This document shows, in pieces, positions 12,302-41,162 of a stretch of DNA of 64,000 bases (the stretch's first letter is position 1; each line of letters begins with the position of its first letter). The position numbers were made by a program, and so were the translations under genes. Location of the stretch: positions 96,465-160,464 of the forward strand of contig NZ_JAVFCB010000008.1 of assembly GCF_030865425.1 (NCBI RefSeq), given 5' to 3'. The notes below the pieces were generated by a model. The model saw only the letters and a program-made list of their open reading frames with translations, searched no databases and was not told the origin of the DNA. Source of the stretch: Microbacterium capsulatum. GTDB taxonomy: Bacteria; Actinomycetota; Actinomycetes; Actinomycetales; Microbacteriaceae.

Positions 12302-13288
12302 TCAGCTCTCCGGGACCAGGATCGCGTGCTCCAGCCGGTCGTACGACGCCTCCATGCCGTCGACCATGCCTGTCGCGAGGATCATGTCGCGCGTGGCGAG
12401 GTCGGGGTACTCGATGAGGAGCGTGATGAGGGTCGCGCCGTCCTCCTCGTACAGGCTGAGGTCGTTCAGCGTGCTCGGACCGTCGGTGCCCTGCATGCGC
12501 TCGGTCGTGACGGCGCGGCGCGGGGCGTCGACGAGCAGCACCTCTCCCTCGAAGCCGAACGGCTCGCCCGGGGTGTCGCCGACCGGCGCCCACGAGTTCC
12601 GGTAGGTTTCGCCGACGACCGTGCTGTCGGTGCACTCGGTCATCTCCCAGCCCTCCGGGCCGAGCATCCACTGCCGGACCAGCTCCGGCTCGGTGTGCGC
12701 GCGCCAGACCAGCTCGCGCGGGCCGTCGACGAGCCGCGTGATGCGGACGTGGGTGTCGTCGAGCAGTTCGAGGCGGGTGCCCTTGCCCTGGGCGTACTCG
12801 CGGAGATCCTGCAGCACGGCGTCGAGCTGGCTCATCGCCATCTTCGTCCCCTCGACGACACCCATCGCGACGACCTGCTCGAGGGCCTCGACCGAGGCGA
12901 AGTGGCTCACCGTGACCATGCGGGATCCGCCGTCGAACGGCTCGAACGCGAAGGTCATCCGCATCGCCGGCATGTCCGGCAGCGGCCGGCCGTCGTCGCC
13001 GACGAAGCGGTCGATGACCTCGAAGCCACGCGGCTCGTCGATGTGCGTGAACTCCCACGATCCGGACGACGACTCGCCCTTCGGACCGTTCATCCGGTAC
13101 TGGGCGAACCCGCCGACGGTGTGGTCGAACGAGGTGAACGTGGCCGGCCAGCCCGGAGGGCCCCAGAAGCGCTCGAGCTGGCGCGGATCGGCGTACGCCT
13201 TCCACAGCCGCTCGACCGGGGCCGGGAACTCGGCGGTGACCGACAGGGTCAGGGCCTGCGGATCGGTGATGACGTCGGTGACGGGCAT
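12302..13288 (-). CDS. Tandem SRPBCC (AHSA1-like) domain protein
   Basis: 328 residues comprising two START-like Activator-of-Hsp90 (AHSA1) domains. The first begins VTAEFPAPVERLWKAYADP with RFWGPPGWPATF, and the second begins ITRLVDGPRELVWRAHTEPE with RQWMLGPEGWEM. Such proteins usually bind hydrophobic ligands. The gene lies 22 bp downstream of an ArsR-type regulator, the classic ArsR-SRPBCC pairing, and should be derepressed with it. Confidence 0.9.
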   Translation of the reverse strand: MPVTDVITDPQALTLSVTAEFPAPVERLWKAYADPRQLERFWGPPGWPATFTSFDHTVGGFAQYRMNGPKGESSSGSWEFTHIDEPRGFEVIDRFVGDDGRPLPDMPAMRMTFAFEPFDGGSRMVTVSHFASVEALEQVVAMGVVEGTKMAMSQLDAVLQDLREYAQGKGTRLELLDDTHVRITRLVDGPRELVWRAHTEPELVRQWMLGPEGWEMTECTDSTVVGETYRNSWAPVGDTPGEPFGFEGEVLLVDAPRRAVTTERMQGTDGPSTLNDLSLYEEDGATLITLLIEYPDLATRDMILATGMVDGMEASYDRLEHAILVPES

Positions 13289-13310: not shown

Positions 13311-13688
13311 TCAGCGGTCTTCGGAGTCGGATCCGGGCGCGGCGGCCGGATCCGGATCCTCGGCGAGCAGGTCGTCGAGGCGGGCGATGCGGGCGCGCCA
13401 GAGGTCCTCGTAGCGGGCCAGGAGTGCGCGGGCGCGGGCGATCATGTCCGGGTTCGCACGGACCAGCCGCTCGCGTCCTTCGGCGCGCTTGACGATGAGC
13501 TCGGCGGCCTCGAGCACGGCGACGTGCTTCTGCACGGCCGCGAACGACATGTCGTAGTCGCGCGCGAGCGCGGACACGGACTGCTCGCGCTCGATCGTGC
13601 GGCGCAGGATGTCGCGCCGCGTGGCCGCCGCGAGGGCCTGGAACACCCGGTCGATCTGCTCATCGCTCAGTTCATTTCGTACAACCAT
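13311..13688 (-). CDS. ArsR-family transcriptional regulator
   Basis: 125 residues with a winged-helix core: IDRVFQALAAATRRDILRRT, then SALARDYDMSFAAVQKHVAV and the wing region LIVKRAEGRERL. It lacks the metal-binding Cys motif of ArsR itself and fits the subgroup paired with SRPBCC proteins. The -10 box ends only 8 bp before the ATG, so the mRNA is probably leaderless, and an 18-bp palindrome covers the start. Confidence 0.93.
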   Translation of the reverse strand: MVVRNELSDEQIDRVFQALAAATRRDILRRTIEREQSVSALARDYDMSFAAVQKHVAVLEAAELIVKRAEGRERLVRANPDMIARARALLARYEDLWRARIARLDDLLAEDPDPAAAPGSDSEDR

Positions 13689-13725
13689 TTGGTTGTAGAT
13701 TAGGCCGGCCGGATAGCGGTGTCAA
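13680..13725 (-). promoter_or_regulatory. arsR promoter with operator over the start codon
   Basis: On the minus strand, TTGACA (13720-13725) and TAATCT (13697-13702) are separated by 17 bp. Immediately downstream the palindrome TACAACCA-TT-TGGTTGTA (13680-13697) overlaps the ATG at 13686-13688. A repressor bound there would block both polymerase clearance and translation. Confidence 0.8.
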
Positions 13726-13729
13726 GAGG

Positions 13730-13734
13730 AAGAC
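13730..13734. repeat. Target-site duplication AAGAC, left copy
   Basis: AAGAC directly precedes the TGTCGG transposon end and recurs directly after the right end at 41158-41162. Five bp is the duplication length made by Tn7-family transposition. Confidence 0.93.
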
Positions 13735-13810
13735 TGTCGGAATCGCGTTGCAGTGACACAAACCGGCCTTAGGCGACACAGGCGGGGATCGCGGTGACAT
13801 CAAGTGTCAC
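13735..13810. repeat. Transposon left end: terminal inverted repeat and TnsB-site repeats
   Basis: The terminal 25 bp (13735-13759), TGTCGG...TGACAC, match the reverse complement of the right end at 18 positions. Inside, similar motifs recur about every 20 bp: TGACAC at 13754, CGACAC at 13774 and TGACAT at 13795, then inverted GTGTCAC at 13804-13810. This is the expected layout of TnsB binding sites. They precede tnsA and may also autoregulate it. Confidence 0.88.
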
Positions 13811-13933
13811 GAAACGCCGACGTGCCTCCCCCGTCGTGCGTGGGCGCGGAGGAGCATCAGCATTGGTTAGCAGGAGCAAGGGGGCTCCACCGCCCCATCG
13901 GCTTCGCGAGATCCGCTTGCGAGAGGGGCTACG

Positions 13934-14749
13934 GTGCGGCCAGTCAACGAGGCGAAGCAGATTGCTGTTCGTCGGCGATCATCGTCAACTGAGTTGCACT
14001 GGATCTCTCGCTCCGCCGAGAACGTCGCCGCCGGGACGAATCAGGAGTTCGCGGTAGTCGGACCTGACGTCGGCGACAACGACTGGGCTGTGATCGATCC
14101 GATGCGAGTGCGCAGGTCGGCGGGCGTTCGTCACTATTTCACGCCGGCGATGTACTTCTGGCAGCGCACGCGGTCCCACGTGTGGTGCGAATCGCAGGCG
14201 GAGCGCTGGGAGGTCCTGTGGTTGGACTTCAGCGATCAGGTCGAGCGACTGTGGTCCCAGCCGATGGCGATCGCTTTCGGCCATGGATCGCGACTGTCGG
14301 GATCCACGCATGTTCCGGACCTTCTGGCGCAGTTCGCCGACGGGACGTACGGCTTGTTTGATGTGCGTCCCGCGGCGCTGATCGATGAACCGGCCCGCAT
14401 GCAGTTCGCCGAGACGGCAGCTGTCTGCGAAACGGTCGGCTGGCGCTACAGAGTGCTCACCGGACATGACACCCGGGCCACTCAGAATCTCGACTGCTTG
14501 TCGGCATCCCGCCATGATCGTTGCCTTCCCACTCGCCAGATGGAGGCGTTGATCCTGGACACTGCCCGCGGTGGCCGGCCCCGCGGCGAGCTGTGCCAGA
14601 TCGTGTGTCCGGAGTGTCCGCCTCTGGCGTGCGCCTGGGTCGACAATCTGGCCTGGCGCCGCCTACTCCACGTCGACCTCGCCGCCGTATTCAGCAGCGA
14701 GACGATCTACGCGACAGCGAATCCATCCGGTGAACGAAGGGCAGGGTGA
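13934..14749 (+). CDS. tnsA: TnsA-like transposase endonuclease subunit
   Basis: 271 residues from GTG with GAGAGGGG upstream. TnsA cleaves the 5' strand at the transposon ends and works with TnsB in cut-and-paste excision. The nuclease core has the Glu region CESQAERWEVLWLDF (Glu86/Glu90), Asp129 in STHVPDLLA, then a Lys-position motif that reads FDVRPA. Arginine stands where classical TnsA has a catalytic lysine. It overlaps tnsB by TGATG. Confidence 0.88.
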   Translation: MRPVNEAKQIAVRRRSSSTELHWISRSAENVAAGTNQEFAVVGPDVGDNDWAVIDPMRVRRSAGVRHYFTPAMYFWQRTRSHVWCESQAERWEVLWLDFSDQVERLWSQPMAIAFGHGSRLSGSTHVPDLLAQFADGTYGLFDVRPAALIDEPARMQFAETAAVCETVGWRYRVLTGHDTRATQNLDCLSASRHDRCLPTRQMEALILDTARGGRPRGELCQIVCPECPPLACAWVDNLAWRRLLHVDLAAVFSSETIYATANPSGERRAG

Positions 14750-16791
14750 TGTCTCAGGAGTACAAGCTTCGGCTTGGCGACAGCGTAGAGATCGAGGGAG
14801 AAACCTGGGTCTGGGAAGGTGTCCGTCGCGGTGTCGACGCCAAGCTGCGCCGCGAGGGTACCGACGACGACTGGCAGATCGTGACCATGCCGGAGCTGCT
14901 CGCTCGTGCAGGCACCGCTCGGCGCGAGTCGACCATGCCGCTCCGGAACATCGCCGGAAACTGGCCGACCGACGTACTCGACATGGAGAGGCACCTGCTG
15001 GAGGTCTTCCGAGGCACCCCGATGGATCCGACTGCGACTGGTCCGCGTCCGGCTTATGACCTGACGCGAACCACTCAGGAACAGCGGATCGCGACCAAGG
15101 TCGAGGAGTTGGCCGGCACCTCTCTGGCACGGTCTCGGAAGGCGCTGTTCAACTTCTGGAAGGAGTACCAATCGACGGGCGTCGCCGGGGTGGATGCCCG
15201 GCTGCACCGGAAGGGCAGGAAGCGATTAGCGATCGCGAAGGCCGACCCACGTCTCGTCGCTGTCATCGATCGAGAGCTCGATAGTCGGGTCAACATGCCC
15301 ACGAGCAGTCGGCGCCACTGTGCCGCGCTTGTGCGACGGGCGCTGGAAGCGATGTATCCCGGTGACCAGATCTGCGCGATCAAGGACACCACCTTGCAGG
15401 GGTACATCAACGAACGCGACGCGGGGCGGTACAGCTTCGCGAAGTCGACCACTCGGCGCACCAGCGCCAACAGCCCCGTCCGGGAGTACTTTTCCCGTAG
15501 CGCTCATCGGCTCGGTGCAGTCTGCGAGATCGACTCGACCACATTGGACGTGCAGGTGTGGGACGAGAAGGGCACTGTATTCCGCCCCACCGTGACGGCG
15601 CTGTTCTGCGTCGCGAGCAGGGTGCCGCTGGCCTGGGCGATCCATGCGGACTCTCCCAACGGCTTCGACCACGCATTGCTGCTGGCTCGCGCCATCGTCG
15701 GTCGCCGGGCGATACCCGGCTCCGGGGCCGCCACCCTGTCGGGGTCTGCCACGCTCCCCGTTCAGCTGATGAAGAAGGTCAACCCGTATCTGGACGATGA
15801 GTCGCTTGCGGTGCCGTGGATCTTCCCGCATGCGATCACGGTCGACGGCGGCGCGGACTTCCGATCGGCCACTTTCGAGGCTGCCTGTCGCGCATTCGGC
15901 ATCACCGTGGTGCTCGCTCCGCCGAACGCTCCGACAGTCAAGCCGCATGTCGAGCGCAACTTCGGGACCACCTCATCGGACTTCGCGACATGGCTGGCTG
16001 GCTCCACTGGCAACTCCGTGTCGAACCGTGGCAAGCGCGATGCTCCGACTCTCACCTTGGATTCAGTGCGGCTCGCGTTCGACGTGTGGATCACCACCGT
16101 GTTTCTGAACAAACAGCACGGCGGTCTGAAGTCCCCCCTATTCCCCGGGCGCGAGTGGACGCCGAATCAGATGTACGCCGCGCTGTTCGAGGTCGGTCCG
16201 GGCGTCCAGCTCCCGTTCCGCGCGGAAGACTTCTTCGCCCTGCTGCCGACGGAACGGCGCGTCATCAGCAAGGAAGGAATCGATCTCCACAATCATCGCT
16301 ATGACTCCCCGCTGCTGGCAGATTTGCGAAACCGTTCGCTCACCGGTGCGGCCGCCGGGTCACGGCACGCACGCCAGTTCGACATCCGCTTCGACCCCTA
16401 CAACACCAACGCCGTGTGGGTGCAACATCCTGAGACCGAAGAGTGGATCGAGTGCTGGGACGAGGCGATCGATGACAAGGGCGCATGGATGGCCGCCGAG
16501 ACCGAGGTGAGGCTCGTCGAGCGCTTCGGCTACGGCGAACCCGGGGAGGCCCCGAAGACCGCAGAGTTCCTTGACGAGATCGAACGCCGGGCACGGAGCG
16601 ACAAGCGTGCACGCAACCGATATATCCGGGAGACACGCGCCGAGTCCGCGGACGCACAAGATGCGGACGCTCCGGTCACCGAGCCCGCCCCGATCGAGTT
16701 GCGCGAATGGGCCGATCCTGTGGACGTCGACGACATCGACTGGGAATCCTCGGCCTACGACATTGTGACGGTGAAAGAGATCCTGCCGTGA
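14749..16791 (+). CDS. tnsB: TnsB transposase (DDE integrase family)
   Basis: 680 residues. The DDE catalytic triad is clear: Asp262 in CEIDSTTLDVQVW, Asp366 in VDGGADFRSATFE and Glu402 in KPHVERNFGT, with the D-E spacing of 35 residues typical of retroviral-type integrases. N-terminal helical DNA-binding regions precede it and a Mu-type C-terminal beta-barrel (KEGIDLHNHRYDSPLL) follows. It joins 3' ends to target DNA. GTG at 14746 is an alternative start. It overlaps tnsA and tnsC by one base each. Confidence 0.95.
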   Translation: MSQEYKLRLGDSVEIEGETWVWEGVRRGVDAKLRREGTDDDWQIVTMPELLARAGTARRESTMPLRNIAGNWPTDVLDMERHLLEVFRGTPMDPTATGPRPAYDLTRTTQEQRIATKVEELAGTSLARSRKALFNFWKEYQSTGVAGVDARLHRKGRKRLAIAKADPRLVAVIDRELDSRVNMPTSSRRHCAALVRRALEAMYPGDQICAIKDTTLQGYINERDAGRYSFAKSTTRRTSANSPVREYFSRSAHRLGAVCEIDSTTLDVQVWDEKGTVFRPTVTALFCVASRVPLAWAIHADSPNGFDHALLLARAIVGRRAIPGSGAATLSGSATLPVQLMKKVNPYLDDESLAVPWIFPHAITVDGGADFRSATFEAACRAFGITVVLAPPNAPTVKPHVERNFGTTSSDFATWLAGSTGNSVSNRGKRDAPTLTLDSVRLAFDVWITTVFLNKQHGGLKSPLFPGREWTPNQMYAALFEVGPGVQLPFRAEDFFALLPTERRVISKEGIDLHNHRYDSPLLADLRNRSLTGAAAGSRHARQFDIRFDPYNTNAVWVQHPETEEWIECWDEAIDDKGAWMAAETEVRLVERFGYGEPGEAPKTAEFLDEIERRARSDKRARNRYIRETRAESADAQDADAPVTEPAPIELREWADPVDVDDIDWESSAYDIVTVKEILP

Positions 16792-17837
16792 TGCTCGAGC
16801 CGCTCGCCCTGGAGCACGACCGCAAGACGACCTTGCCGGGCCTCCGCGAGGCGCTGAATGCGCTTCCGCCCCGACCGCCCATATTGTCTTTCGCGGAATA
16901 CGTCGCGCTGCCCGAGGATGAGCGCGCTGTGTATGACGAGGCCCGGGACGACTTCATGCGCCTCACGTTGCGTGTGCCGACACCGGAACAGGATCTGAGT
17001 GCGCGAATCCTGGCCAAGCTCATCGCCTCGAACCCGCGCCGCAAGAACTCTCGCAGGGGACTCATGATCTCGGCGCCGATGTTCTACGGCAAGACCGAGC
17101 TCGCACTGCTCCTGGCACGCTCGGTCGAACACGAACATGCCAAGCGGTTCCCGGACTACGCCGCCGCCGGCGAAGTTCCGGTCGTCTGGGTGGAGGTGAC
17201 GGATCACGCCACCGGAAAGGCGCTTCTCTCCCAGATTGTCCGCTTCCTCGCGCCGACCGTCGGCTTGCCGACGCAGATCACCACAGAAGAGCTGCGGCGA
17301 CGGACCGTCGACCTGCTGCACATCCACCGCACGAAGCTGCTCGTCATCGACGAGGCGCACAACCTCAGCGGCTCAGACCCTTCGAGCGTCATCAAGGCGC
17401 TGCAGAACGAATCGTCGGCCACCGTCGCGCTGGTCGGGATCAGTCTCGCCAGCGGCAAGGCGTTCGGATCCGGCGCAGGTCTTCAGGTCACGATGAGGTG
17501 CGACATGGTCGAGCTGCGGAAGATCGACGGCAAGTCGGACGACGGGCTCGCACTGTGGAGGCGGTGGGTAGCGATCTTCGACCGCAACCTTCCGTTGTGC
17601 GATCACGTGCCCGGGACGCTTACCCGTAACGCCCGAGTCCTTCACAAGGCTGCGAACGGACGCCTCGCTGTGCTCGCGATGATCGTCGAGCGCCTGGTCG
17701 CCTCGATCGTCGACGACCCCCACCGCCAAGACGAACAGGTGACCCGGGAACGCCTGTTCGCGGTTCTGGACAGCCTCCGCCACACCACTGCGGTGCGGCA
17801 TCGGATCACGCTCGATGACCTGGTCGAGGCCGCATGA
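16791..17837 (+). CDS. tnsC: TnsC AAA+ ATPase
   Basis: 348 residues. The regulator links target selector to transposase. Walker A reads SAPMFYGKTEL (about 94-104), a variant with Met-Phe-Tyr before GKT, and Walker B reads LLVIDEAHNL (about 184-193). A sensor-like LVGISLASGKAFG follows. ATG overlaps the tnsB stop (TGATG) and its own stop overlaps tniQ by ATGA, making tnsA-B-C-tniQ one coupled unit. Confidence 0.93.
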   Translation: MLEPLALEHDRKTTLPGLREALNALPPRPPILSFAEYVALPEDERAVYDEARDDFMRLTLRVPTPEQDLSARILAKLIASNPRRKNSRRGLMISAPMFYGKTELALLLARSVEHEHAKRFPDYAAAGEVPVVWVEVTDHATGKALLSQIVRFLAPTVGLPTQITTEELRRRTVDLLHIHRTKLLVIDEAHNLSGSDPSSVIKALQNESSATVALVGISLASGKAFGSGAGLQVTMRCDMVELRKIDGKSDDGLALWRRWVAIFDRNLPLCDHVPGTLTRNARVLHKAANGRLAVLAMIVERLVASIVDDPHRQDEQVTRERLFAVLDSLRHTTAVRHRITLDDLVEAA

Positions 17838-19963
17838 TGGAAGATCTGGCCTGGGCAGTCAGACCGAAGTGGCATCGTTTCGAGTCCCCGCGCTCCTACA
17901 TGCGCCGCCAGTGTCAGGCTGCGGGTGTGCCGCTCTCCTTCGTCGAGCGCGGGCTGAAGCTGAAGGCCGATTACCATCGCTATACGTATCAGGTGTGGGC
18001 CGACGAGGCCGAGGCAGCAGCCACGATGGAGGCCGCCGCCGGTCGGCCCGCGGGCCACTATCTTCGCCTGAAACAACTCGCCCAGCCCGATCCTGAACAT
18101 GAGTACCAGGAACGATTCCTGTGCAGACTCTGCGCCGCCGGAGACCGCGTCGAACAGATCCCGCACGATCGCGAGAACTGGTGCCTTCGCCACGCCGGCC
18201 AGATGGTTTGGACGGGCCCGGGGTCAACCCCAGATACGCAACTCGTCGTCCCCTACGACGATGCACAGGCGAAGGCGGAACGCCGGTTCCGACGTCTCGT
18301 CAATAGCAGCCGTGTCAAAGCCCGTCTGCATGCGCGAGTGTGGGAGATGGTCCGAGACAACGCCTGGCTGACCGCGCCAGAAGGATGGAGCCCGGCGCTG
18401 GCGCAGTGCCTTGACGATCACGAGGTTCGGGGGCGCGCCGCGCTCTACGTCGAGACCGTCGCGGTCCTTGCCGTCCTATCCGAGGCGGCCATCGTCACCC
18501 GCTGGGCTTCGCTCCCGCCGCCAGACCTCCGGCGCGGCATCGTCGAGGCTCTACCGTCGGCTTGGATGCACGTCAGTGTGCTCGTGGAACGGATCGTGCT
18601 GTGGCTGCGCCCAATGCGCCGTGAACTGCGCCCCACGCGCATCGACCCACTGGACATCCCACTGGACATCGTCGACACACCGGCCATCATCGACATCACC
18701 GCGCCCTACCCCTTGTGGATCCAGCGCCACCCCCACGCAGTCGCAGAGTGGGCGTGGAGACGCAACGACCAAGCCCGAGATCCGTGGGAGTCACGAGGGA
18801 CATCCGTGAAGGCGTGGTGGGTCTGCGACACAGGACACGCCTGGGAAACCACCCCCTACCTTCGAGCAATCTCAGGCTGCCCCTACTGCGCGGGCCAGGC
18901 CGCATGGCTCGGACTGTCGGACCTAGGCACCCAGTACCCCGAGCTTGCGGCCGAGTGGGACCGCACACCGGGAGCAAACGCGGGAGATCCCGATCATGTG
19001 AGCACCGGATCGCGTCGGCGCATCAACTGGGTCTGTCAGCGAGGGCACCGCTGGGTAGCCGAAATCCAGAATCGAACGAGACTCGGAGCGGGCTGCCCCT
19101 TCTGCGCAGGACAACGAGCCATCCCCGGAGAGACCGATCTCGCCACCCTCCGACCCGATCTCGCAGCCCAGTGGAACCACGAACGCAACGGTGAACTGAC
19201 CCCGCACACGATCGGGGCTGCAACCATCCGGAAGGTGTGGTGGAAAGGTCCCTGTGGCCACGAGTGGCAAGCATCCATCAGCAACCGGACGCGGGGCGGC
19301 ACTGGATGCCCCTACTGTGCCCGCAAGCGTCCGATCCCCGGACTCAACGACCTCGCGACCGTTCGCCCCGACCTCGCCGCTCAATGGGACACGAGCAACA
19401 CGCTAAGGCCCGACGAGGTCCTCCCAAGCGCGGGCAAGAAGGTCACCTGGCGCTGCGCACGCGGCCACGTGTGGGAAGCGGCGATCTACAGCCGTTCACA
19501 CGATGGCCGAGGGTGCCCGTACTGTTCCGGACGGCGACCGGTGGTCGGCGAGTCCGATCTCGCCACCCTCCGACCCGATCTGATCAACGAATGGGACCCA
19601 TCGAACAAGCTGCAGCCCCACGAGGTGACTGCGCATTCGAAAATGCGTGCAACGTGGAGATGCGCCGACGGGCACGTGTGGAAGGCGATCGTCCAGAGCC
19701 GCACAAGCCGCCGTGGCACAGGATGCCCCACCTGCCGCGGCAAGCGCCCCGTCACCGGCCAGAACGACCTGGCGACGCTCCGACCCGACCTCGCGGCGCA
19801 GTGGGACACCAGCAACAGCAGCAGACCCGACCGCGTCAAGCCAACATCGAGACGTAAGGTGACCTGGAAGTGCACGAACGGACACACCTGGGTGGAGACC
19901 GTGATCAGCCGCTCGCACGGGAGCGGGTGCCCGGAGTGCGAGTCGGCTCGGTCGTCGGTGTGA
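17834..19963 (+). CDS. tniQ: TniQ-family target selector fused to six tandem treble-clef zinc fingers
   Basis: 709 residues. The N-terminal third resembles TniQ/TnsD: FESPRSYMRRQCQAAGVPLS and a zinc knuckle CRLC...CLRH (residues 97-120). From about residue 327 a DUF4379-like unit of roughly 68 residues repeats. Each has the form W-C-x2-GH-x-W ... GCPxC followed by a linker such as DLATLRPDLAAQWD. Five units are complete and a sixth ends the protein. In the third the first Cys is displaced (GPCGHEW). TniQ proteins choose the insertion site; the array plausibly reads DNA or RNA, which is inference. Confidence 0.85.
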   Translation: MMEDLAWAVRPKWHRFESPRSYMRRQCQAAGVPLSFVERGLKLKADYHRYTYQVWADEAEAAATMEAAAGRPAGHYLRLKQLAQPDPEHEYQERFLCRLCAAGDRVEQIPHDRENWCLRHAGQMVWTGPGSTPDTQLVVPYDDAQAKAERRFRRLVNSSRVKARLHARVWEMVRDNAWLTAPEGWSPALAQCLDDHEVRGRAALYVETVAVLAVLSEAAIVTRWASLPPPDLRRGIVEALPSAWMHVSVLVERIVLWLRPMRRELRPTRIDPLDIPLDIVDTPAIIDITAPYPLWIQRHPHAVAEWAWRRNDQARDPWESRGTSVKAWWVCDTGHAWETTPYLRAISGCPYCAGQAAWLGLSDLGTQYPELAAEWDRTPGANAGDPDHVSTGSRRRINWVCQRGHRWVAEIQNRTRLGAGCPFCAGQRAIPGETDLATLRPDLAAQWNHERNGELTPHTIGAATIRKVWWKGPCGHEWQASISNRTRGGTGCPYCARKRPIPGLNDLATVRPDLAAQWDTSNTLRPDEVLPSAGKKVTWRCARGHVWEAAIYSRSHDGRGCPYCSGRRPVVGESDLATLRPDLINEWDPSNKLQPHEVTAHSKMRATWRCADGHVWKAIVQSRTSRRGTGCPTCRGKRPVTGQNDLATLRPDLAAQWDTSNSSRPDRVKPTSRRKVTWKCTNGHTWVETVISRSHGSGCPECESARSSV

Positions 19964-20446: not shown

Positions 20447-20481
20447 CTAGCGTTTCGCTATACATCCTTAGATTTCGCTAG
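20447..20481. other. Small inverted repeats between convergent cargo genes
   Basis: TAGCGTTTCGCTA at 20448-20460 is palindromic, and CTAGCG (20447-20452) is inverted at 20476-20481. They lie between the stops of two convergent genes and may act as a bidirectional terminator, though no clear T tract follows. Confidence 0.3.
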
Positions 20482-21065
20482 ATTCGGCCTTCCGTCGTCG
20501 CGGCCGACCCCGCATCTATCAGCGCCGTGAGCTCGTCGCGCTGCGAGGTCGTGAGCCGGCCATGTCGGTGCCCATTGGAGATGGCCTGGCTGAGCAGGTA
20601 TGTCGGTGTTCCGAAGCGAACGCACTGATGGATCGCTGTCGCCAACTTCACGATCGGCACCTCACGCCACCAGGTGATCTGCTCGCTGTGGAGGTCCTGG
20701 CGGTGAACCACGTATTGGACGCCGCCGCTGCGCCGGATCCTTCGTTGGACGCCGACGGTCATGTGGATGTGCCCTGGGTTGATGTCGCTGACCTCGAAGA
20801 GATCCAGTGCAGTCTCGTGGCTCAGCGCAGCCTCCCGAGCGCCGGTCCACAGCACAGCTCGCATGTAGGGGTCGGCCTGATCGAACGGGTACTTCACGAA
20901 CCGATAGACACCATACGAGGCGTGTTCAAGGGTGCCACGAACGGCGAGCTGATTGAGCGCGCGGCGGGTGACCCCGAGTCCTTCCGCTTGGCTCGCAGTG
21001 ACGTAGCCGTGTTGACCCGACGCGGCCTCCCACAGCACGTCCCGGGCCAGCGCGTTCGACGCCAT
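20478..21065 (-). CDS. AbiEi-like antitoxin-domain protein without an AbiEii partner
   Basis: 195 residues. The N-terminal winged helix (GYVTASQAEGLGVTRRALNQ, then LEHASYGVYRF) and the following ALSHETALDLFEVSDINPG, HIHMTV and LATAIHQCVRFG are characteristic of the AbiEi type IV antitoxin/transcriptional regulator group. In AbiE systems the next gene encodes an AbiEii nucleotidyltransferase toxin. None is present downstream, and the upstream neighbour does not look like one. Confidence 0.82.
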   Translation of the reverse strand: MASNALARDVLWEAASGQHGYVTASQAEGLGVTRRALNQLAVRGTLEHASYGVYRFVKYPFDQADPYMRAVLWTGAREAALSHETALDLFEVSDINPGHIHMTVGVQRRIRRSGGVQYVVHRQDLHSEQITWWREVPIVKLATAIHQCVRFGTPTYLLSQAISNGHRHGRLTTSQRDELTALIDAGSAATTEGRI

Positions 21066-22439: not shown

Positions 22440-23891
22440 ATGGGTCGCGCTCAGGAAGGTACGGTCGACTTGCTCGTACCTGACAACTTCATCCGCGCCA
22501 TCCGCGAATCCGGCTACGTGAGCCTGGCCACAGCCCTGGCCGAACTGATCGATAATTCCCTCCAGGCGCATGCCGCCAGCATCAATGTGACGGTGGAACG
22601 TGCCCACGCCGACGCGCTACCTGTGATCACCATCGAGGATGATGGCATCGGCATGAACAAGGACGAACTCACCGCTTGTCTGCTCTTCGGCGGCTCGTCC
22701 CGCTTCGACTCCCGCAACTCATTCGGACGGTTCGGGATGGGCCTCCCGGCCGCCTCGCTCAGCCAGGCACGCCGGGTGGAGGTCACGGCCTGGCAAGCAG
22801 AGACTCCCGCCCTCACAGTTGGACTGGACGTAGACGCCGTCGCCAGACGGGAGGGCGCAGCGCTGGCTCCCAGACCAGGCTCGGCCGGCACTTCAGCTTC
22901 TGGCTGCCGCGTCGTCTGGCGAGACTGCGACCGGATCGAGTACCGCCGCCTGGCCTGGCTGGAGCGATCCCTGCACCGCGACCTCGGTCGGATGTACCGC
23001 CGATTCCTGATGTCAGGGGTCGTGCTTCGCATCAACGGTAAGGCGGTAGCACCGACTGACCCGCTGTTGCGTTCGACCAAGATCAACGGAGGTACAGGCC
23101 ATCTGGCATTCGAGCCGATCCGCTACGAAATCTCCAAGACGGGTGGCGGAACTGGCTTCGTGACCGTCACCTTCGCCTCGCTTCCCGTTGCCCGCTGGCA
23201 CGACCTCGACAACGCCACCAAGCGTAAAGTCGGCATCATCGGTCAAGGTGGGGTATCCATCCTGCGGGCCGGACGCGAGATCGCGACTGGCTGGTATCTC
23301 ATGGGCGGCAAGCGCAAGGAGAACTACGACGACTGGTGGCGGTGCGAGATCGAGTTTGACCCCGACCTAGACGAGCACTTCGGCATCACCGTAAACAAGC
23401 AGGGGGTGCGACCAACTTCTGCCCTGCGTGAAGCCCTCGAACCAGAACTCGAATCTATCGCTCGTGTGCTGAACGCCCGAGTCCGCCAAGCCTTCGAGGA
23501 AGTAAAGTTTGAGGCGGCCGTTCAGGGGTCGTGCCGGATCGCGGGTGCCGCAGACGCTGACCTGCCGGTGATCCCCACCCCTGGCCGCACCGCCGGTGCC
23601 CTCACCTATCGGCTGGGTGCCGAGCAACTTTCCGGAGACTCCATGTTCAAACTGACGCTGCGGCAAAGGCGCCTCGACGTCATCATGAACATCGATCACC
23701 CGGCATTCGGTGCGCTATACCGTCCCCTCCAGGAGTTGGGAGACTCCGGCACCCAGGTGCGAACCGCGCTTGAACTAATGCTGCTGTCCTTCGCCCGCTC
23801 GGTCGCGTCGATGGGGCCAAGCGAACAGGAGTGTCGCGAACTGCTCGACGTCTGGGGCGCCACCTACGGACGAATGCTGGCTAAGTCATGA
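22440..23891 (+). CDS. GHKL (HATPase) ATP-binding protein, first gene of a Druantia-like pair
   Basis: 483 residues. The Bergerat-fold ATP site is complete: N-box ALAELIDNSLQ (Glu35, Asn39), G1 box IEDDGIGMN (about 65-73) and G2 box GRFGMGLPAASL (about 96-107). There is no histidine-kinase dimerisation helix, so it belongs with MutL/Hsp90/MORC-type ATPases acting as a nucleotide-driven clamp. A strong GGAGGGAG precedes ATG. Its stop overlaps the DruA-like gene by ATGA, implying a joint function. This family is not a component of the standard Druantia types known to me. Confidence 0.88.
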   Translation: MGRAQEGTVDLLVPDNFIRAIRESGYVSLATALAELIDNSLQAHAASINVTVERAHADALPVITIEDDGIGMNKDELTACLLFGGSSRFDSRNSFGRFGMGLPAASLSQARRVEVTAWQAETPALTVGLDVDAVARREGAALAPRPGSAGTSASGCRVVWRDCDRIEYRRLAWLERSLHRDLGRMYRRFLMSGVVLRINGKAVAPTDPLLRSTKINGGTGHLAFEPIRYEISKTGGGTGFVTVTFASLPVARWHDLDNATKRKVGIIGQGGVSILRAGREIATGWYLMGGKRKENYDDWWRCEIEFDPDLDEHFGITVNKQGVRPTSALREALEPELESIARVLNARVRQAFEEVKFEAAVQGSCRIAGAADADLPVIPTPGRTAGALTYRLGAEQLSGDSMFKLTLRQRRLDVIMNIDHPAFGALYRPLQELGDSGTQVRTALELMLLSFARSVASMGPSEQECRELLDVWGATYGRMLAKS

Positions 23892-25876
23892 CCGAACCAG
23901 ACGAGGGCAAGTTGCTTAACATATCGCTGCCCGGCGGCACCCCAAAGGCGGAGCGCGAAGGATTCCTCCGCTTGTGCAAGGCCCTGACCGAGGCAGATCT
24001 CGATCCGGCTGAGGCTCTTGACCGAGACCTCTGGTTCGCACGAGCAGATCTGGGAAACCTCTACAACAAGCCGACGCTCGCTGCTGCCGCCCATACGTTG
24101 ATCGATCTGGTCGAGCAAGGTTGGTCGCTATCGATGGCTTACAGACACGGTCCTTTGCTCACTCCGCCGCCAGCGAACCCCGACCCGGAGCTTGAGAAGT
24201 CCCGCATCCGACGCCAGGAGCACCTCCGTCGCGATTCCCAGCTTCGTAAACCCAGCGTCCGCCGTTTCGTAGAGCGCATGGAGAAGCCCCGCGACTTCGA
24301 CGGCAAGCTGGTCACCGTGTTCAACCTGATGCGGGATGGCCGCGAACTGGCCGATTCGCTGACGAGTGCCGCTGATCCCAGCTGCGTGATCCGCCCCTAC
24401 ATCCAGATCGTCGACGGGGGTACGTGCGAGCGAACCGGCTACGACCTACACGATATCTGGCGCTACTTCCGGCATACGTGGTCGAACGCCTACTTCACGG
24501 TGCCGGGTCGTTCCATGCCGGTCTTGGTCCGCGACGCAGCCACGCCGCACCACGCAGTCATCGGCTTGGCAGCGATCTCTAGCCCGGTGGTCCAGATCGC
24601 CGAGCGCGACCAGTGGATCGGCTGGGATACCGACACCTTCTTGAATGACGTCCGCGAGGCTCCGTCCGATGAGATCGCTTCGTGGCTTGCCGGAAGAATC
24701 GACGCCCAACTTGAGGAGATATATCTCGGCGATCTGCTTGCCGACAACGTGCTCCAGCCATCCGACCTCAAGCACCCAAGAAATGAAGTAATCGCCCTGC
24801 TACGAGCCGATGCCGAACGACATCGTCAAAAGCACCATCGAACTCCGCTCAGTGAAGTTCGGCAGATGGAACAGGACCCGTGGATTGAGCGCGCAACCTC
24901 TCCTCTGTTCCGCAGCAAGCGGTCGGCGACACTGGCCGACACCCTCGAGGCATCCCTCGCGCTCCAACCCTTCTTCTCACCGAAGCCCACGGCCGACGGC
25001 CTCCTTGACGCCCTGAAGGACGCCAAGGCTCGGGCGCAGATTCGCCGACTCGTCCGCCGGGCACGTGGTGAGCGAGTCGGTACCGTCATTGCCGACCTGA
25101 CGGTCTGCGGGGCTGTCGCTCCCTACAGTGCTCTAGCAGCGGGCAAGTTGGTCGGCGCGCTAGCTGTTTCACCCAAAGTCATAGCGGCGTACCGCGCGAA
25201 GTACGCCCGCCCCAGCGAGATCGCCTCCTCGATGGCAGGCCGTTCCATCGAACGTGAGTCACGTCTGTCTTTCATCAGCACCACATCGCTATATGGCAGC
25301 GGCTCCAGCCAGTACAACCGACTCCGCTGGCCGGCCGAGGTAATGGGTGGATCGAAGGACGAACGGATCTGCTTCACTGAACTCGGTCGATCCCGCTCCT
25401 TCGGAACCTCACAATTCACCGACGAAACTGTCGAGGCACTGGTTCGCCTGTCGCGGGTCAAGGGCTCCGTCGTGCGTGTCAACAGTGTCTTCGGCGAAGG
25501 CGTCAGCCCGCGCCTCCGAAAGGTCCGGCTTGGCTTGGCCGCCCTTGGGTGGCCAACTAGCGAACTCCTGAAGCATGGTCGAGAGCGAATCGTCTACGGC
25601 GTGAAGTTGGCCGAGAATCTGCGGGACTACTCGCTGGGGATCGATCCCGATCCCGAGTACTTGCTGGACCCAGAGCAAACGAATGAGACATCCGTCGGCA
25701 GTTGGTGGTTCGAACGGTGGGGCGAGCGGCGTGCGGAACAGCCCCGAGTTCGGGAGAGCATGCGTCGCCACCGCCTGGTCCGTCCGGTTAGTCACGGAGC
25801 TAGAGTCCCCTTGCCGGCCGATGACGTCGACGACGCACCCAGTGAATCGATGCTCTTCGCGGCCGAGGGCTTCTAA
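23888..25876 (+). CDS. druA: DruA-like protein (DUF4338), long form
   Basis: 662 residues. The DUF4338 signature of Druantia protein DruA is visible from about 168 onward: PYIQIVDGG, then GYDLHDIWRYFRHTWSNAY, PGRSMPVLVRDAA, HAVIGLAAISSPVVQIAERD and WIGWDTDTF. Later come VIADLTVCGAVAPYSALAAG and TTSLYGSGSSQYNRLRWP (about 463-480). Known DruA proteins, as I recall them, are shorter; here about 165 N-terminal residues precede the domain and a 100-residue tail follows. The stop codon overlaps that of the convergent nuclease gene. The biochemical role of DruA is not established. Confidence 0.88.
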   Translation: MTEPDEGKLLNISLPGGTPKAEREGFLRLCKALTEADLDPAEALDRDLWFARADLGNLYNKPTLAAAAHTLIDLVEQGWSLSMAYRHGPLLTPPPANPDPELEKSRIRRQEHLRRDSQLRKPSVRRFVERMEKPRDFDGKLVTVFNLMRDGRELADSLTSAADPSCVIRPYIQIVDGGTCERTGYDLHDIWRYFRHTWSNAYFTVPGRSMPVLVRDAATPHHAVIGLAAISSPVVQIAERDQWIGWDTDTFLNDVREAPSDEIASWLAGRIDAQLEEIYLGDLLADNVLQPSDLKHPRNEVIALLRADAERHRQKHHRTPLSEVRQMEQDPWIERATSPLFRSKRSATLADTLEASLALQPFFSPKPTADGLLDALKDAKARAQIRRLVRRARGERVGTVIADLTVCGAVAPYSALAAGKLVGALAVSPKVIAAYRAKYARPSEIASSMAGRSIERESRLSFISTTSLYGSGSSQYNRLRWPAEVMGGSKDERICFTELGRSRSFGTSQFTDETVEALVRLSRVKGSVVRVNSVFGEGVSPRLRKVRLGLAALGWPTSELLKHGRERIVYGVKLAENLRDYSLGIDPDPEYLLDPEQTNETSVGSWWFERWGERRAEQPRVRESMRRHRLVRPVSHGARVPLPADDVDDAPSESMLFAAEGF

Positions 25877-27102
25877 ACCGACTCAACCCGAAATGCCTCG
25901 GTCGCGACTGTAACCGACCCGATCGGCCAGTCCGTCTGCGGATCAGCGCCACGCCGTAATCCCAGAAGGCGCACGCGATCTCCCGACGCGAAGGGCGGCG
26001 CTGGGGTGGTAGTGCGAAGTAGCAGCTCAGGACGACCAGCGTCATTCAAGAGCCACCAACTGCGCTGCCCGTTCTGCTCGCCAATGACCCCCTCGTAGTC
26101 GAATAGGTCCCCCTGGTTGATGTCGGAAAGCTTTGGAGCAATGGTTGCCCAATAGCTGGCGCAAAGATGACGCACTGCGCAGTAACGGCAGTTCTCCTGG
26201 CTTGGCCTCGCAGTGGGGCTGCCCGACGCGATCTCCCCGTCAGCATCGGCGATCTTGGTTGCGAACTCTAGGGACAGGACTGCCATTTGGTCGGCATTCG
26301 GCACGTCGATGCTGACATCTTGGTCGCGGTACGCCGCGGTCAGGCTGGCGACACCCAACCCCCGCGGATTGACCTTCTCGTCGGCTCCCCAAAGCCACGC
26401 ATAGAGCTGCAGTTGGTCGGCATGGCCATCAGATTCACCGCCCGTCTTGTAGTCGATGATGTCAACGCGATCGTCTGAGATCATCAGCAAATCGACGCGA
26501 CCATAGAGCCGCTCGCGCTCGGCTACCAACTCAACCTCTGGGTGTGATCCCGCCCCGAGTTCTTGGCGCACAAACGCTCGCGAGCGGCCACCCTCGGCAG
26601 CCTGCGTCGAGTGTCGGGGGCCGGATACGAACTTCGTGCGACTGAGGTAGGTCTGCACCTGTGCCCGAGCGTCGGCGACCCGGGCTTCGAGATCGATTGC
26701 GATGCGGCGATGGAGATCTTTCGACAAACGCATGTTGTCCTTCAGCGAAGCGAGTTGATTCGCAAGCTCGTTTTCGACCACCGACGTGAATCCGCCCAGA
26801 TCGCGGATGACTTCGGCTGCTGATTCGGCCTGCGGGGACTCCACTGCGGCGTCAGCCATTGCCTTTACCACCACCTCCAGGGCTCCATGCACGACATTGC
26901 CGAACAGTGCCGGAACCGACGGCACCGACGGATAGCCCTCCTGATGTCCGAGATCTGGGTAGGTGGCTCGCCGCAGGCAGTACCTCAGCGGACAAGATGA
27001 AGCTTCCTCCAGCGTCGAGTAGCTCCAGCGGGCGGGAGGGCCCACGAGCACCGCTCGGCTGAAAGCGATACCGGTGGCGAGGGCACCCGGCGAGTCCGTC
27101 AC
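25873..27102 (-). CDS. PD-(D/E)XK nuclease with Fe-S cysteine motif (Cas4/AddB-like)
   Basis: 409 residues. RecB-type nuclease motifs are present: ALFGNVVHGALE (catalytic His region, about 66-77), GRVDLLMI (Asp about 218) and DIIDYKTG (D-x-K about 230). Four cysteines, SCPLRYC near residues 36-42 and CRYCAVRHLC near 305-314, match the 4Fe-4S arrangement of Cas4/AddB nucleases. A short beta-rich tail (PPFASGDRVRLLGLRRG) follows. It overlaps the helicase stop by ATGA, so nuclease and helicase are co-translated, suggesting a helicase-nuclease complex. Confidence 0.9.
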   Translation of the reverse strand: MTDSPGALATGIAFSRAVLVGPPARWSYSTLEEASSCPLRYCLRRATYPDLGHQEGYPSVPSVPALFGNVVHGALEVVVKAMADAAVESPQAESAAEVIRDLGGFTSVVENELANQLASLKDNMRLSKDLHRRIAIDLEARVADARAQVQTYLSRTKFVSGPRHSTQAAEGGRSRAFVRQELGAGSHPEVELVAERERLYGRVDLLMISDDRVDIIDYKTGGESDGHADQLQLYAWLWGADEKVNPRGLGVASLTAAYRDQDVSIDVPNADQMAVLSLEFATKIADADGEIASGSPTARPSQENCRYCAVRHLCASYWATIAPKLSDINQGDLFDYEGVIGEQNGQRSWWLLNDAGRPELLLRTTTPAPPFASGDRVRLLGLRRGADPQTDWPIGSVTVATEAFRVESV

Positions 27103-30100
27103 GCCAAAACCTTCTCAACAGCAAGGCTGGCGTTCGGCAAGCTCCGTGAGATTTCGATGTCATCGACCAGACGGACGGGAATCACCGCTTGGTTCTCTTT
27201 GGCGTCGTTCAGCAAGGCGTCGGGAGCTTGGTGTGGCGTCAGCGGGCTGTGAACTCCAAAGATGAACCTACGGTCACCCTTGGTCGCCAGAATCGGTGCT
27301 GTCACCACGCCGATGCCCGGGATGCTCACCTCAGCATCGCGCACAAAGTCGACCCCCGTGATGCCGCGTCCCTTGAGGTCGTTGTAGAGACGGTCGGTAG
27401 ACAGTTGCAGCCGTGATGCGTCGAGCGTTGGGGCGGTCCCGTACAGCAGGTACCGCAGCAAGCTCGCCCCGACTTTGCGGTCGAGGAGACCATGCTCGAA
27501 ACGGTTTCGGAAGCTGCGGATGCACCGATAGCAGGACTGGTCGCAGCCGGCGGGACAATACTCCAGCCGGGTGAGAGTCTCCTCTAGCACCTGAATCCCC
27601 AGTTCCTCGACGCGACGAGTGAATCCAGCACCGCCCGCCAGAGTGTCGTACAGGTAGATCTCGGCCTCTAGCCCTGCCGCCCCGCCCGGGGTCAGAGCCG
27701 GGCGGTACTCCGCCTGGAGCTCGGTCGCCTCGATATCGAGCAGCTGCGTCGCGGCGATAGTCATAGCCTCTGCGATGGTCCGAAGAGCCACCTGCGTCGA
27801 CAAGAACTGCGGAGCCAGCCGAACCGGCGAGGCCACCTTTAGTCGCACCAACAGAACATCGGTGATGAAGTCCGTCCCGAGGGCCAGACCTCGCCACGCC
27901 GAGTCTCCAGAACAATCCTGCTCGTTCTGGTCCGGGAATGGCTTCTTGTGCTGCCCGACGACAGTGCCGCCAGCGAGCGCTGTCGGCTCGATCTTGCCGC
28001 ACTTGAAACAGTATGTGTAGCCCTCGTTACCGGGACCAGTGTTGGTGACAATCAGCGTCTCGCGGTGATAGGTCTGCTGGATGCGGTCCGTCACCTCGGA
28101 CCAGGCCGACTCGTCGTCCGGTCCTGGAGCGACCAGCTTGGCTCGAGTGGCATAGCTCCGAGCCGGGGCATCATCGGGGCTCGTCCCCTCGGTCTCGTCG
28201 GCCGGGTGCGCAAACCCGGGCGGACGCATCCATGCCATCGCTTCTCCGAACGAATCCTCGGTACCGCAAGCCTCGCACTCGCGGATCTCCCCGGGGTGGG
28301 CTTCCTCCTGGTCGTAGTACTTGGCGTAGTGGCAAACTCGGCACTCGAAGTAGAGCTTGTGCGCTTGCCACGCCTTGTAGCGCTCCGCATTGACCGGCGA
28401 GTAGATCGCCCCGGAGCGCCACTCCTTGTTGTCGATCCAGACCACCTTGCCGGGGGCGTACTGGCTGAGGGCGACGGGTAGCCCCTGGCTCGGTGCGTAG
28501 CGGTAGGCAGCCCGGAAGGGTTGGGAGCGGTCGACGTCGAACACGTGAAAGGTGGCGACATCTGTTGGGAAGGCGTAGCGCGGCAAGACGCCCTTGTAGA
28601 GCAGTCGATCCAGCAGATTGGTTTGGCTCCGCATCGGGCTGGGTTCTTCAGCCCCATCCTCTGCCGGACCTTCGGCCTCGGCTTCCTCAGCTTCGGGTGT
28701 CGAGTCGCCGGCCTCCGGAGTCGGAAGTGCTCCCCCGGCGGTGAGATCGAGCGCACTGTCAATCGCGGCCAGGGTGTTCGAGACCAGGGCATCCAGAACC
28801 TGCTCACGACTAGCGGGCGGTAGTTCCGAGGGCAGCCAGTCGTCGACATCCGCCCGAAGCGATGCGTAGTTCTGGTTGAGCCACTTCTCCAGATCAGCTC
28901 GGTTGAGCGGCGACACCGTACCCACGAACTCTGGCACCGTGCCCAGCACCTCGAAGAGTTGCGACGACTGGGTATTGGGGTCGAAGGTCGGCAGCTTGTC
29001 TTGGTGGTACCGCTGCAGCAAGTATGCGGTGACGTGCCGCTTGGCGATCTCGTCGTTGTCCAACGTCAGCACTGGGTCGACCACCTTGCCGCGGATCATC
29101 TCGGCGGGCTCGCGGAAGTAGTGGTCGTCGTGAGTGTCAGAGCTTCCAAATGCCACGACAGTTGCCACGGCATTGCCACGACGTCCGGCTCGACCAGCTC
29201 GCTGTTGGTAGTTGGCACGGGAGGGCGGCATGTTGCGAAGGGCGACTCCGGACAACGCACCGATGTCGATGCCGACCTCCATCGTCGTGGTGCACGACAG
29301 CACGTCGATGGCTGCCCGCTCCTGGGCGCCCGCACTCGGCAACTCAATGTCGACGTCTTGGAACAGCAACTCGTGCTCCTCCGCCTTGGAGAACACGGCC
29401 TCGGACTGGGCCGCGTTTAGCTGGGCGGTGTGCTCGGCTGCGATGATGCTCATTGGCGGTTCGGGGTTGTCCCCGAGAGATCGCACTGTGCTGGCTCGGT
29501 AGTAGCCCTTGCGTGCTGTGAACACCGGATCACTATTCGGGTCGAGGATTCGCACCTGGTTCGCACCACAACTGACACACTTCGACGATCCAGGGAACGG
29601 CCGCTGAGTGAAACGGCATCGTTCGCAATAGCCCCACTCGCCTTCGAGCTCTAGCGCGACCTTGCCGGCCAGCATGTAGTGCTTGCTGCCACCAGCAGTC
29701 TCACAGAACCGCTGCTGCAGAACCGGTAGCCACTCCTTGTTGAACTGTCTAGCGAGGATCGCCGAATCAAGCCAACGCTCGAAGGGACGGAACTTGCCTG
29801 CATGAGGTCGGACGCCTTCCTTCTTCCCCCGCCAGTCCATCGTCATGCTTGGGAACCAGATGCCATTGCTCGGTGTGGCCCACTGCGCCAGCCAGACTCG
29901 GACCAGCGCCAGCTTCTTCTCGTCGGTGTCGGCAATGCCAGGCAGATTCGTCAAGTCCGCCAACATTGCGGCTCTGTCGGTCTCCCGCTCGCGGAGCGAT
30001 GCCAGACCCAGCGCCGCTAGGCCGTAGTATCGGTCGATCAGCGTGGCGTAGATGGCCTTCATCAATGACTCGGGCGGGTAGACCGCAAGCGACACCAATT

Positions 30101-36700: not shown

Positions 36701-36861
36701 CCGAACCGGCTCGGTTCATGAATTGCCCGCAGAACTGAGGCGAGTTCCTCGATCGTCGGTGCTGACGGCGGGCCCGGCGGTATACCCCTGAGCGCGGGCC
36801 CGACCCTCACATCCGTGAACTCGACATAGAGCGTCACCCCTCGCCGGTAGCCTCTGTGCAT
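33757..36861 (-). CDS. Large unrecognised protein heading the helicase operon
   Basis: Up to 1034 residues. The N-terminal half is helical with a striking block YWRQSWLPFVVYAAEAGYDY, then FWPSFEEVTPGW, VPSGGFAQNFPIIAWPITHA and LPVYLQRHLAQLLYEFR. The middle and C-terminus are rich in beta segments (residues about 430-800) and resemble stacked Ig- or OB-like folds. Such large proteins partner DUF1998 helicases in several defence loci, but I do not recognise this family. The ATG at 36861 overlaps the divergent SLATT start; a GTG at 36837 is a possible alternative. Confidence 0.8.
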   Translation of the reverse strand: MHRGYRRGVTLYVEFTDVRVGPALRGIPPGPPSAPTIEELASVLRAIHEPSRFGKLDVGRIRKTIRDDLGVVTVLGPGGVIELVSLVPRMPMESLSLLHSRLDEHFRILHSQRRALAVGAPLFALEHDLSENDLDTLTDSVRHAVASGFGARYWRQSWLPFVVYAAEAGYDYVGNEFWPSFEEVTPGWATHGDRDRIRLLFQKFGVEYGGAVPSGGFAQNFPIIAWPITHAVLPVYLQRHLAQLLYEFRTGLTTELLREPDALGKQLAARAWGYTERFRIFCSNTSLLGHVAAALLYGEEEESPYLLHSTLLRLVKGLEQERQSKIWLQGARNAASRVRAHGFQPSISRTGGGNPHGRLPKPTDPHLLLRGSETGWRVYAQMPDLSSLSRSLTHVYDELRTRRAWVEGAEDTVLARGRLATAGQEIRLTRWPISDASFIELEDGSSDVNALLRDQVEISRGPIWLFKRRGPGIAVEVKGKQVRPANTYYLVHGEDWTGDGIPGLDPVKIDVSGAIATRLVLPERLTEAESKALVAAGLSVVANVAIRPVGIVASSWDGEGAVEWMAGEPGLVGIRAEQIPAGGALSLDGEQYSLEWPDSSPEIFLSLEDLSVGEHELRITLTGNAQQTLAEGSLLVTIRDPQVRGDAAEMGEGIRLLASPARPTMSEIWAPGAITIAGPDGLRVDLAVSLRGQSDRELAKISQSITLPLLDSDWAGVAKNVRGDNRFAGSFDQAESLELTVSRAGIGHAALRADRGFQPLRWQLFREREQTRAHLIDRTDSPDTRVLLYRVETPVTLEELDPRSDVLVPATGGLLRAKGGEGIDASATILLPTRPNDLLGTRVRPNVQTGARTPGELLRLVLHHQRWAEADLPGDAFAQHERDIVLEAITRALVSLAGGSRWAAVERKLANSNDPFDLIDKLQDVVGDSEDQKRLAKKIGQSLYVWQDPAALLTGFSGVIQGTLRASGVIGHDSAPRFLLTLAGHSSRILSWPEVERGYLMQQVITSPVLLRAARFAVVGTRLMGEAEQSSRGF

Positions 36862-41157: not shown

Positions 41158-41162
41158 AAGAC
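41158..41162. repeat. Target-site duplication AAGAC, right copy
   Basis: Directly follows the CCGACA end of the element and is identical to 13730-13734. Confidence 0.93.

Follow-up and report, generated by a model that had tools for sequence, protein, structure and literature searches.

Tn7 makes a 5-bp target duplication when it inserts. Its selector TnsD is described as using a 36-bp site in glmS, with insertion about 25 bp away, and as having a CCCH zinc motif (PMC2918618), while TnsD-type selectors are reported to bear long C-terminal extensions (PMC10293859). TnsF, from the same source, is a separate protein with several N-terminal zinc fingers, and its N-terminal region is recorded once as naturally fused with TniQ (PMC10293859). 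The excerpts of Benler et al. 2021, a study of the defence cargo of Tn7-like elements, describe an Actinobacteria-dominated clade of such elements with no experimentally characterised member (PMC8649781). The present analysis concerns a Tn7-like element of Microbacterium capsulatum and its putative target selector, in which a TniQ-like core is followed by a tandem array of six DUF4379 zinc-finger units. It lies in a stretch of 64,000 nucleotides (the window; RefSeq assembly GCF_030865425.1, contig NZ_JAVFCB010000008.1, positions 96,465 to 160,464), to which all coordinates refer. Array length alone does not set the target in this group, since the same site before an arsR-family gene is used with 2, 4, 5, 6 and 7 units. 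Among the titles and abstract beginnings of the open-licence literature, no work was found on TniQ with DUF4379, on arsR as a Tn7-like site or on Tn7-like elements of Microbacterium; DUF4379 comes up a single time in each of three papers.

A Tn7-like Operon with a Probable Array-Bearing Selector

The element is complete, extending from 13735 to 41157 (27.4 kb) with ends TGTCGG/CCGACA and the 5-bp duplication AAGAC on both sides. The genes tnsA, tnsB, tnsC and tniQ are consecutive, overlapping open reading frames that form one operon, of which the selector is the fourth gene. The operon, the inverted ends with internal motifs and the 5-bp duplication are all present, and the element is a Tn7-like transposon. 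Its features are as follows.

13730–13734: target-site duplication AAGAC, left copy
13735–13933, plus strand: left end, with the terminal repeat TGTCGGAATCGCG and then repeated TGACA-type motifs, probable TnsB sites
13934–14749, plus strand: tnsA, endonuclease subunit (NCBIfam NF033179 TnsA_like_Actin, 6e-35, over the cut-off)
14746–16791, plus strand: tnsB, transposase (Pfam Mu-transpos_C, 6.5e-9; transpos_IS481 below the cut-off)
16707–17837, plus strand: tnsC/tniB, AAA ATPase, start codon uncertain (Pfam TniB, 1.6e-12)
17834–19963, plus strand: tniQ/tnsD-like target selector, 709 amino acids, its start overlapping the tnsC stop, with a six-unit DUF4379 array
17834–18724, plus strand: TniQ-like core, residues 1–297, with C97-x2-C100 ... 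C117-x2-H120
18725–18889, plus strand: DUF4379 unit 1
18890–19105, plus strand: DUF4379 unit 2 (units 1 and 2 occur in every close orthologue read to its end)
19106–19318, plus strand: DUF4379 unit 3, a WWxGxCGH variant
19319–19525, plus strand: DUF4379 unit 4
19526–19735, plus strand: DUF4379 unit 5
19736–19939, plus strand: DUF4379 unit 6
41075–41157, minus strand: right end, with the terminus CGCGTTCCCGACA and inward TGTCA motifs
41158–41162: target-site duplication AAGAC, right copy

The selector matches PF14311 (DUF4379, "probable treble clef zinc finger") six times with an E-value of 2.1e-87 and 287.7 bits against a cut-off of 24.5, which is far past chance level. The units span residues 298–702, and their closing Cys-x2-Cys pairs end at residues 352, 424, 495, 564, 634 and 702, a spacing of 68–72 residues, which bears out the tandem six-unit zinc-finger array proposed in the first-pass annotation. 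The unit motif given there holds in general, unit 3 being the exception with WWxGxCGHxW and a shifted first Cys, a form present in the seven six-unit proteins aligned. The repeats had also been called still highly similar as DNA; the 20-mer cited indeed occurs in two exact copies (19141–19160 and 19561–19580), while overall the copies are 60–72% identical over 50–87 nt, and the units 30–63% identical as protein. Orthologues of the units are present in the same order in other species, so the units are old, and the residues specific to each unit are kept among orthologues, unit by unit. In the predicted structure the units reach block-mean pLDDT (predicted local distance difference test) values of 70–93 and match solved DUF4379 chains. 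PADLOC gave no match for the selector.

The core is taken as a diverged TniQ on account of a profile-profile match, a CxxC-x16-CxxH motif and the gene order. An alignment of 18 cores was compared by hhalign with 15 PF06527 proteins, independent ones of the same class that are all over the cut-off, and gave a probability of 94% with E-values of 1.8e-8 and 1.3e-7 in two runs, 68 columns being aligned in the second; all seven controls (one reversed, six column-shuffled) had a probability below 1%. The motif residues C97, C100, C117 and H120 (CCCH) are invariant in 18 of 18 aligned cores. A search of 296 genomes of the class with the core profile gave matches at E≤1e-10 in 7, the source genome and one same-genus genome included, and the short array-less proteins tested from the class have PF06527 as their best match in six of six cases (E 2.5e-6 to 0.55, one over the cut-off). 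PF06527 itself, run on six orthologues, gave a single match (E 6.4) over the expected span. Against the PDB the core profile gave weak matches only, eleven entries with unrelated proteins at the top, six TniQ sequences being among them at E 1.3–1.6 over profile positions 14–49. Foldseek and VIA-align returned no TniQ among the matches of either predicted model, which, with the N-terminal part poorly predicted, is not evidence against the fold. The label "TniQ" of the first-pass annotation thus stands on hhalign, motif and gene order and lacks a direct Pfam match, and a role as target selector of a Tn7-like element is likely, given the core match and the operon order tnsA-B-C-tniQ.

The Attachment Site Before arsR

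On its left side the element adjoins a pair of host genes and a palindrome.

13311–13688, minus strand: arsR-family regulator gene on the host side of the insertion (Pfam HTH_20, 2.4e-7; HTH_5, 0.0014)
12302–13288, minus strand: AHSA1/SRPBCC gene paired with arsR (Pfam AHSA1, 5e-34)
13680–13697: palindrome TACAACCATTTGGTTGTA, which covers the arsR start codon and lies 37 bp from the element; probably the ArsR operator

Sites were surveyed in 25 genomes, namely 24 of the same genus and M. murale, 14 of them with tnsA close to a located left end and eleven others. In each of the 14 elements whose tnsA is no more than 3.4 kb away, that end is found in front of arsR and AHSA1, always in the same orientation, so that one attachment site at a near-fixed distance is seen, as is typical of TnsD-type selection. 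The distance from tnsA to the left end is 139–213 bp in 13 elements and 3,385 bp in G352. The resolved insertion sites before arsR share the palindrome core AACCATTTGGTT, whose first base stands 51–52 bp from the element end in 13 elements. These 14 elements encode six units in nine cases, two in two cases, and four, five and seven in one case each. The seven-unit element of G344 also occupies this site, between copies of TTTTC, and has its operon 19 kb inward. Genomes G227, G317, G490, G475, G409 and G495 have the same type of end at the site, with tniQ about 18–41 kb inside on the proper side, the elements not being closed. G199 fits the arsR site only with a circular contig, G286 (two units) has a matching TCTTG on another contig, and no link to the site is possible for G382.

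A matched 5-bp duplication around a single element was seen at five of 15 sites scanned (G000, G326, G316, G344 and G520, with 6, 6, 6, 7 and 2 units, respectively). In G244, two right ends lying further out in a tandem likewise had matched duplications. The arsR site of that genome apparently holds at least three Tn7-like elements: behind each of three right ends a further left end begins, the duplication CTTCC is present at two of the right ends, and new insertions seem to reuse the occupied site.

Of 32 genomes, 28 have the arsR site pattern exactly once and four do not have it, a backward-read control giving 0 of 32; a slightly longer pattern occurs once in each of 8 genomes. Among the 28 genomes with the site, eight are without such an end, and G333, G211 and G394 carry an end without a close tniQ. 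G318 and G244 hold the same element (99.97% identity over 18,467 bp) in host flanks that are 74% identical over 1,367 bp, which indicates that the element moves and finds arsR again. No empty site could be shown by way of the right-hand flank, which is too little conserved in 99 genomes.

Other targets were at one point considered for L036 and L040–L043, whose left flanks first seemed unrelated to arsR. The end of L036 (G352) was then located 3.4 kb further out, at arsR, and in the genomes of L040–L043 ends of another sequence type were located at arsR, after which the notion that a different array implies a different site was given up. The G344-type group (L040–L043, L046 and L062) has different termini, TGTGACTTGCGGCTTTAGATCGG, with the operon about 18–41 kb inside, and in several of its genomes a tnsA-like start lies directly behind the arsR-site end; these are probably composite elements.

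A Natural Series of Array Lengths

Of 366 same-genus genomes searched with the 309-residue core, 24 gave a match at E≤1e-30, the source included. Two units are present in four genomes, four in one, five in one, six in eight and seven in nine, and one of the 24 orthologues is cut by a contig end. Units were counted with Pfam in seven proteins and by motif and by eye in the others; a regular-expression count missed one unit each in G344 and G526, for which the Pfam counts of 7 and 5 were used. A scan of public genomes (17 loci) added M. murale CCM 7640 with six units and a short contig with five. The two-unit selectors consist of the core and units 1 and 2, with nothing further.

The ratio of nonsynonymous to synonymous substitution rates (dN/dS) of the units is 0.05–0.42 where dS exceeds 0.1 and the ratio is computable, much like that of the core (nine pairs), and indicates that the array is under purifying selection; the last unit is among the fastest-evolving in most six-unit pairs. 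In the pair G316/G547 the core has a dS of 0.28 as against 1.2–2.3 for the units, and from core to unit 6 (as counted there) dS increases from 0.05 to 0.51 in G344/G199 and from 0.08 to 0.86 in G344/G227. Judging from these jumps, recombination has apparently swapped the 3' part of the array in some pairs, with the site unchanged. In G547 (L096), tnsC is broken by about 1.4 kb near its 3' end.

The first-pass annotation had described the array as modular and able to expand or contract, and the counts among relatives agree with this. It had further supposed that such changes would alter targeting, and here the comparison of unit number with insertion site among homologues speaks otherwise, as the number varies while the site before arsR stays constant. 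The selectors of G318 and G244, the same residue for residue, sit at the same gene in spite of flanks that are only 74% identical.

Array-Bearing Relatives at Other Sites

In the family, the core finds a match at E≤0.001 in 6 of 199 genomes, the source included, and the other five carry arrays behind TnsABC. Ends were searched in ten diverged elements with 60-kb loci, of which two, G182 and G281, gave clear ends and the remaining eight chance-level scores only; the same search with 20-kb loci gave nothing clear in 13 diverged elements. In G182 the duplication GAAAG lies 19 bp past the stop codon of nrdF, at its 3' end, and in G281 the duplication CCATC directly follows tRNA-Gly(CCC). G333a has an end beside its own tRNA-Gly(CCC), located by ARAGORN and by eye, with no duplication found, and G281 and G333a differ in the orientation of the element relative to the tRNA. 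Judged from these loci, the family changes sites over long times, core and array both having changed by then; since the whole selector differs in such far relatives, their other sites do not single out the array.

Several loci have features of their own. In L078 (G089) a single TnsABC set is followed by a tandem pair of TniQ-like genes, both with arrays. In the diverged elements L080, L082, L075 and L068 a divergent small gene with PRYxPR[DE][YF] near its start precedes tnsA and is perhaps a regulator. In viral contigs, 20 stretches matched a pattern and none was confirmed.

DUF4379 Units in Other Proteins and the Question of a Guide

A phmmer search with the units led to DUF4379 proteins of the kinetoplastid mitochondrial ribosome, 6sga chain Fd (E 3.5e-11) and mS66; chain Fd superposes on unit 3 of the model with a Z of 11.3 and 1.8 Å over 69 residues at 41% identity. 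The window protein matches 79 plasmid records, the match being confined to the array part in the 40 listed. A plasmid of Rhodococcus sp. WAY2 (L161, 4196–8236) encodes a 1346-residue protein in which six DUF4379 units are fused to helicase and methyltransferase domains.

Capture of a nucleic-acid guide by the array, raised in the first-pass annotation, found no support in the element and target sequences. Over a 250-bp target flank in five elements, the longest exact match between element and target was 12–14 nt; of 60 shuffled controls per element, 14 to 51 gave a match at least as long. Between operator region and element there was no match of 10 nt or more in the window, and matches of 10–11 nt in the other four elements. 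No Rfam family reached threshold in 13600–41300, and no stretch behind tniQ was conserved in six relatives. A guide matching the target, as in CRISPR-associated (clustered regularly interspaced short palindromic repeats; RNA-guided) transposons, was thus not found.

How the Selector May Find Its Site

The selector is probably a TnsD-like, protein-guided one, in which treble-clef units replace the helix-turn-helix tail. We infer sequence-specific DNA binding, and the array plausibly reads target sequence. In this scheme the TniQ core would recruit TnsC, the C-terminal DUF4379 fingers would contact DNA, and the selector, by binding the palindrome or adjoining arsR DNA, would direct TnsC and TnsAB to the arsR-AHSA1 promoter region as the single chromosomal site. 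Insertion would occur at a fixed distance, 36–37 bp from the near edge of the palindrome and just upstream of a TTGACA-like promoter box. The core and units 1 and 2 would be enough to define the site, the further units being optional in number and probably adding affinity or contacting neighbouring DNA. The scheme draws support from the complete element with its AAGAC duplication, the operon order and the core profile match, the constant site with its matched duplications, the single occurrence of the site pattern in most genomes, the same element at arsR in two hosts with dissimilar flanks, the purifying selection on the array and the precedent of TnsD. In addition, at 19 collinear occupied sites (of 27) the palindrome core does not vary, unlike the stretch toward the insertion (mean 0.59) and the third positions of arsR codons 5–10, whose conservation is 0.37–0.79.

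Several observations weigh against this scheme. The window protein has no match to PF06527 (TniQ) at E≤1, and a search of the source genome with that family likewise gave no match for the selector, the controls of that search giving none either; predicted models of the core have pLDDT below 50 over most of residues 1–135 or, in a second model, much of residues 1–112. The solved relatives found for the units are all in mitochondrial ribosomes, so that contact with RNA is equally precedented. Arrays are not uniformly basic, the net charge being +18 in M. capsulatum and −9 to 0 in eight seven-unit G344-type arrays, and an electrostatic clamp as a common role of the array was dropped because the charge changes sign. 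The two-unit element of G432 lies inside arsR, about 79 codons in and across the operator from the other insertions, with arsR split into codons 1–84 and 79–end about 60 kb apart and another end at the operator. In G318 the first base of the palindrome core is 66 bp from the element, as against 51 bp in G244 with the same selector. Nine of the 15 sites scanned show no matched duplication within the sequence examined. The conservation of the palindrome core in itself proves nothing, since the pattern used to fetch the sites contains it, and the operator is in any case conserved for its own regulator.

It is rather doubtful that the array is an accessory without part in site choice, with the TniQ core, perhaps capped structurally by units 1 and 2, recognising arsR and the fingers binding TnsC, non-specific DNA or RNA. 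Such a division of labour would suit a site that stays constant while the units go from 2 to 7, the array-less TniQ relatives in the class, the unconserved net charge and the units that occur without a TniQ core in the Rhodococcus plasmid helicase/methyltransferase fusion and in mitochondrial ribosome proteins. Set against this, no close orthologue read to its end has fewer than two units, the units appear to be under purifying selection with their specific residues kept among orthologues, and arrays persist in three diverged lineages, each at a different site. That same retention of each unit's own residues, together with the other sites of far relatives with other arrays, would fit modular DNA reading, with each unit contributing a few bases and the array sequence programming the target. 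This is quite unlikely, as 2, 4, 5, 6 and 7 units lead to the same site, at the same distance but for one; G316 and G547 have seemingly exchanged arrays and kept the site; the identical arrays of G318 and G244 are at arsR genes of quite different coding sequence; and third codon positions are less constrained beyond the palindrome.

Another reading, in which DUF4379 units are DNA-reading modules, units 1 and 2 reading the arsR operator region and the arrays at tRNA-Gly and nrdF reading those genes, is unlikely. Were it true, swapping the first units would re-aim a Tn7-like transposase, giving a protein-programmable counterpart of CRISPR-guided transposition. That the fingers hold a guide RNA pairing with the target is highly improbable. 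The ribosome assemblies in which the units have their nearest solved relatives would suit it, whereas the element-target matches in five elements are no better than shuffled controls, and neither an Rfam match nor a conserved stretch behind tniQ is present.

Cargo of the Element

The cargo (20478–40882) is rich in defence genes, which are as follows.

20478–21065, minus strand: AbiEi-like
22440–23891, plus strand: MzaB-like ATPase, below the NCBIfam cut-off
23888–25876, plus strand: Druantia type I DruA
25873–27102, minus strand: DruK-like nuclease
27099–32702, minus strand: DruE
32672–33757, minus strand: DruD
about 37389–38258, plus strand: SMODS nucleotidyltransferase
39104–40882, minus strand: SIR2-like

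Adjoining the Druantia genes, a protein of 1034 residues (33757–36861, minus strand) has no match in PADLOC or Pfam (E≤0.01).

Comparison with Known Systems

The locus presents a Tn7-like selector with a different type of tail, in actinobacteria, whose Tn7-like elements are left uncharacterised in the surveys as excerpted here. Its family has three attachment sites, the arsR promoter, tRNA-Gly(CCC) and the 3' end of nrdF, and offers a natural deletion series in which one site is used with 2, 4, 5, 6 and 7 fingers. The series bears on where in a TnsD-like protein the site is read and on what the widespread DUF4379 fingers, as in plasmid helicase fusions and mitochondrial ribosome proteins, bind. 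The units share the PF14311 fold with kinetoplastid mt-SAF33, mS66 and plasmid zinc-ribbon proteins; unlike this selector, the DUF4379 proteins looked at elsewhere are without a TniQ core.

Like the TniQ/TnsD selectors of Faure et al. 2023, the protein has a modular C-terminal extension of a diverse kind presumably reading the attachment site (PMC10293859). The extensions and partners in the excerpts of that article are helix-turn-helix domains, TnsE, Cas effectors and TnsF, and a zinc-finger array fused to TniQ is not described in them (PMC10293859). The element also resembles the clade of Benler et al. in being an actinobacterial one with tnsABC and tnsD; in its excerpts that study gives neither site nor selector architecture for the clade (PMC8649781).

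The closest likeness in design is to Tn7. As with TnsD, the selector is an operon partner of TnsABC with a TniQ-type core, a CCCH motif and a long C-terminal extension, and as with Tn7 at attTn7 beside glmS, the element uses one safe site beside a conserved gene at a constant distance with a 5-bp duplication. The site here is on the promoter side of arsR, whereas that of Tn7 is at the 3' end of a coding region. The extension of TnsD consists of helix-turn-helix domains, while that of the present selector is a DUF4379 treble-clef array, which, as a further difference, can have anywhere from 2 to 7 units with the site staying in place.

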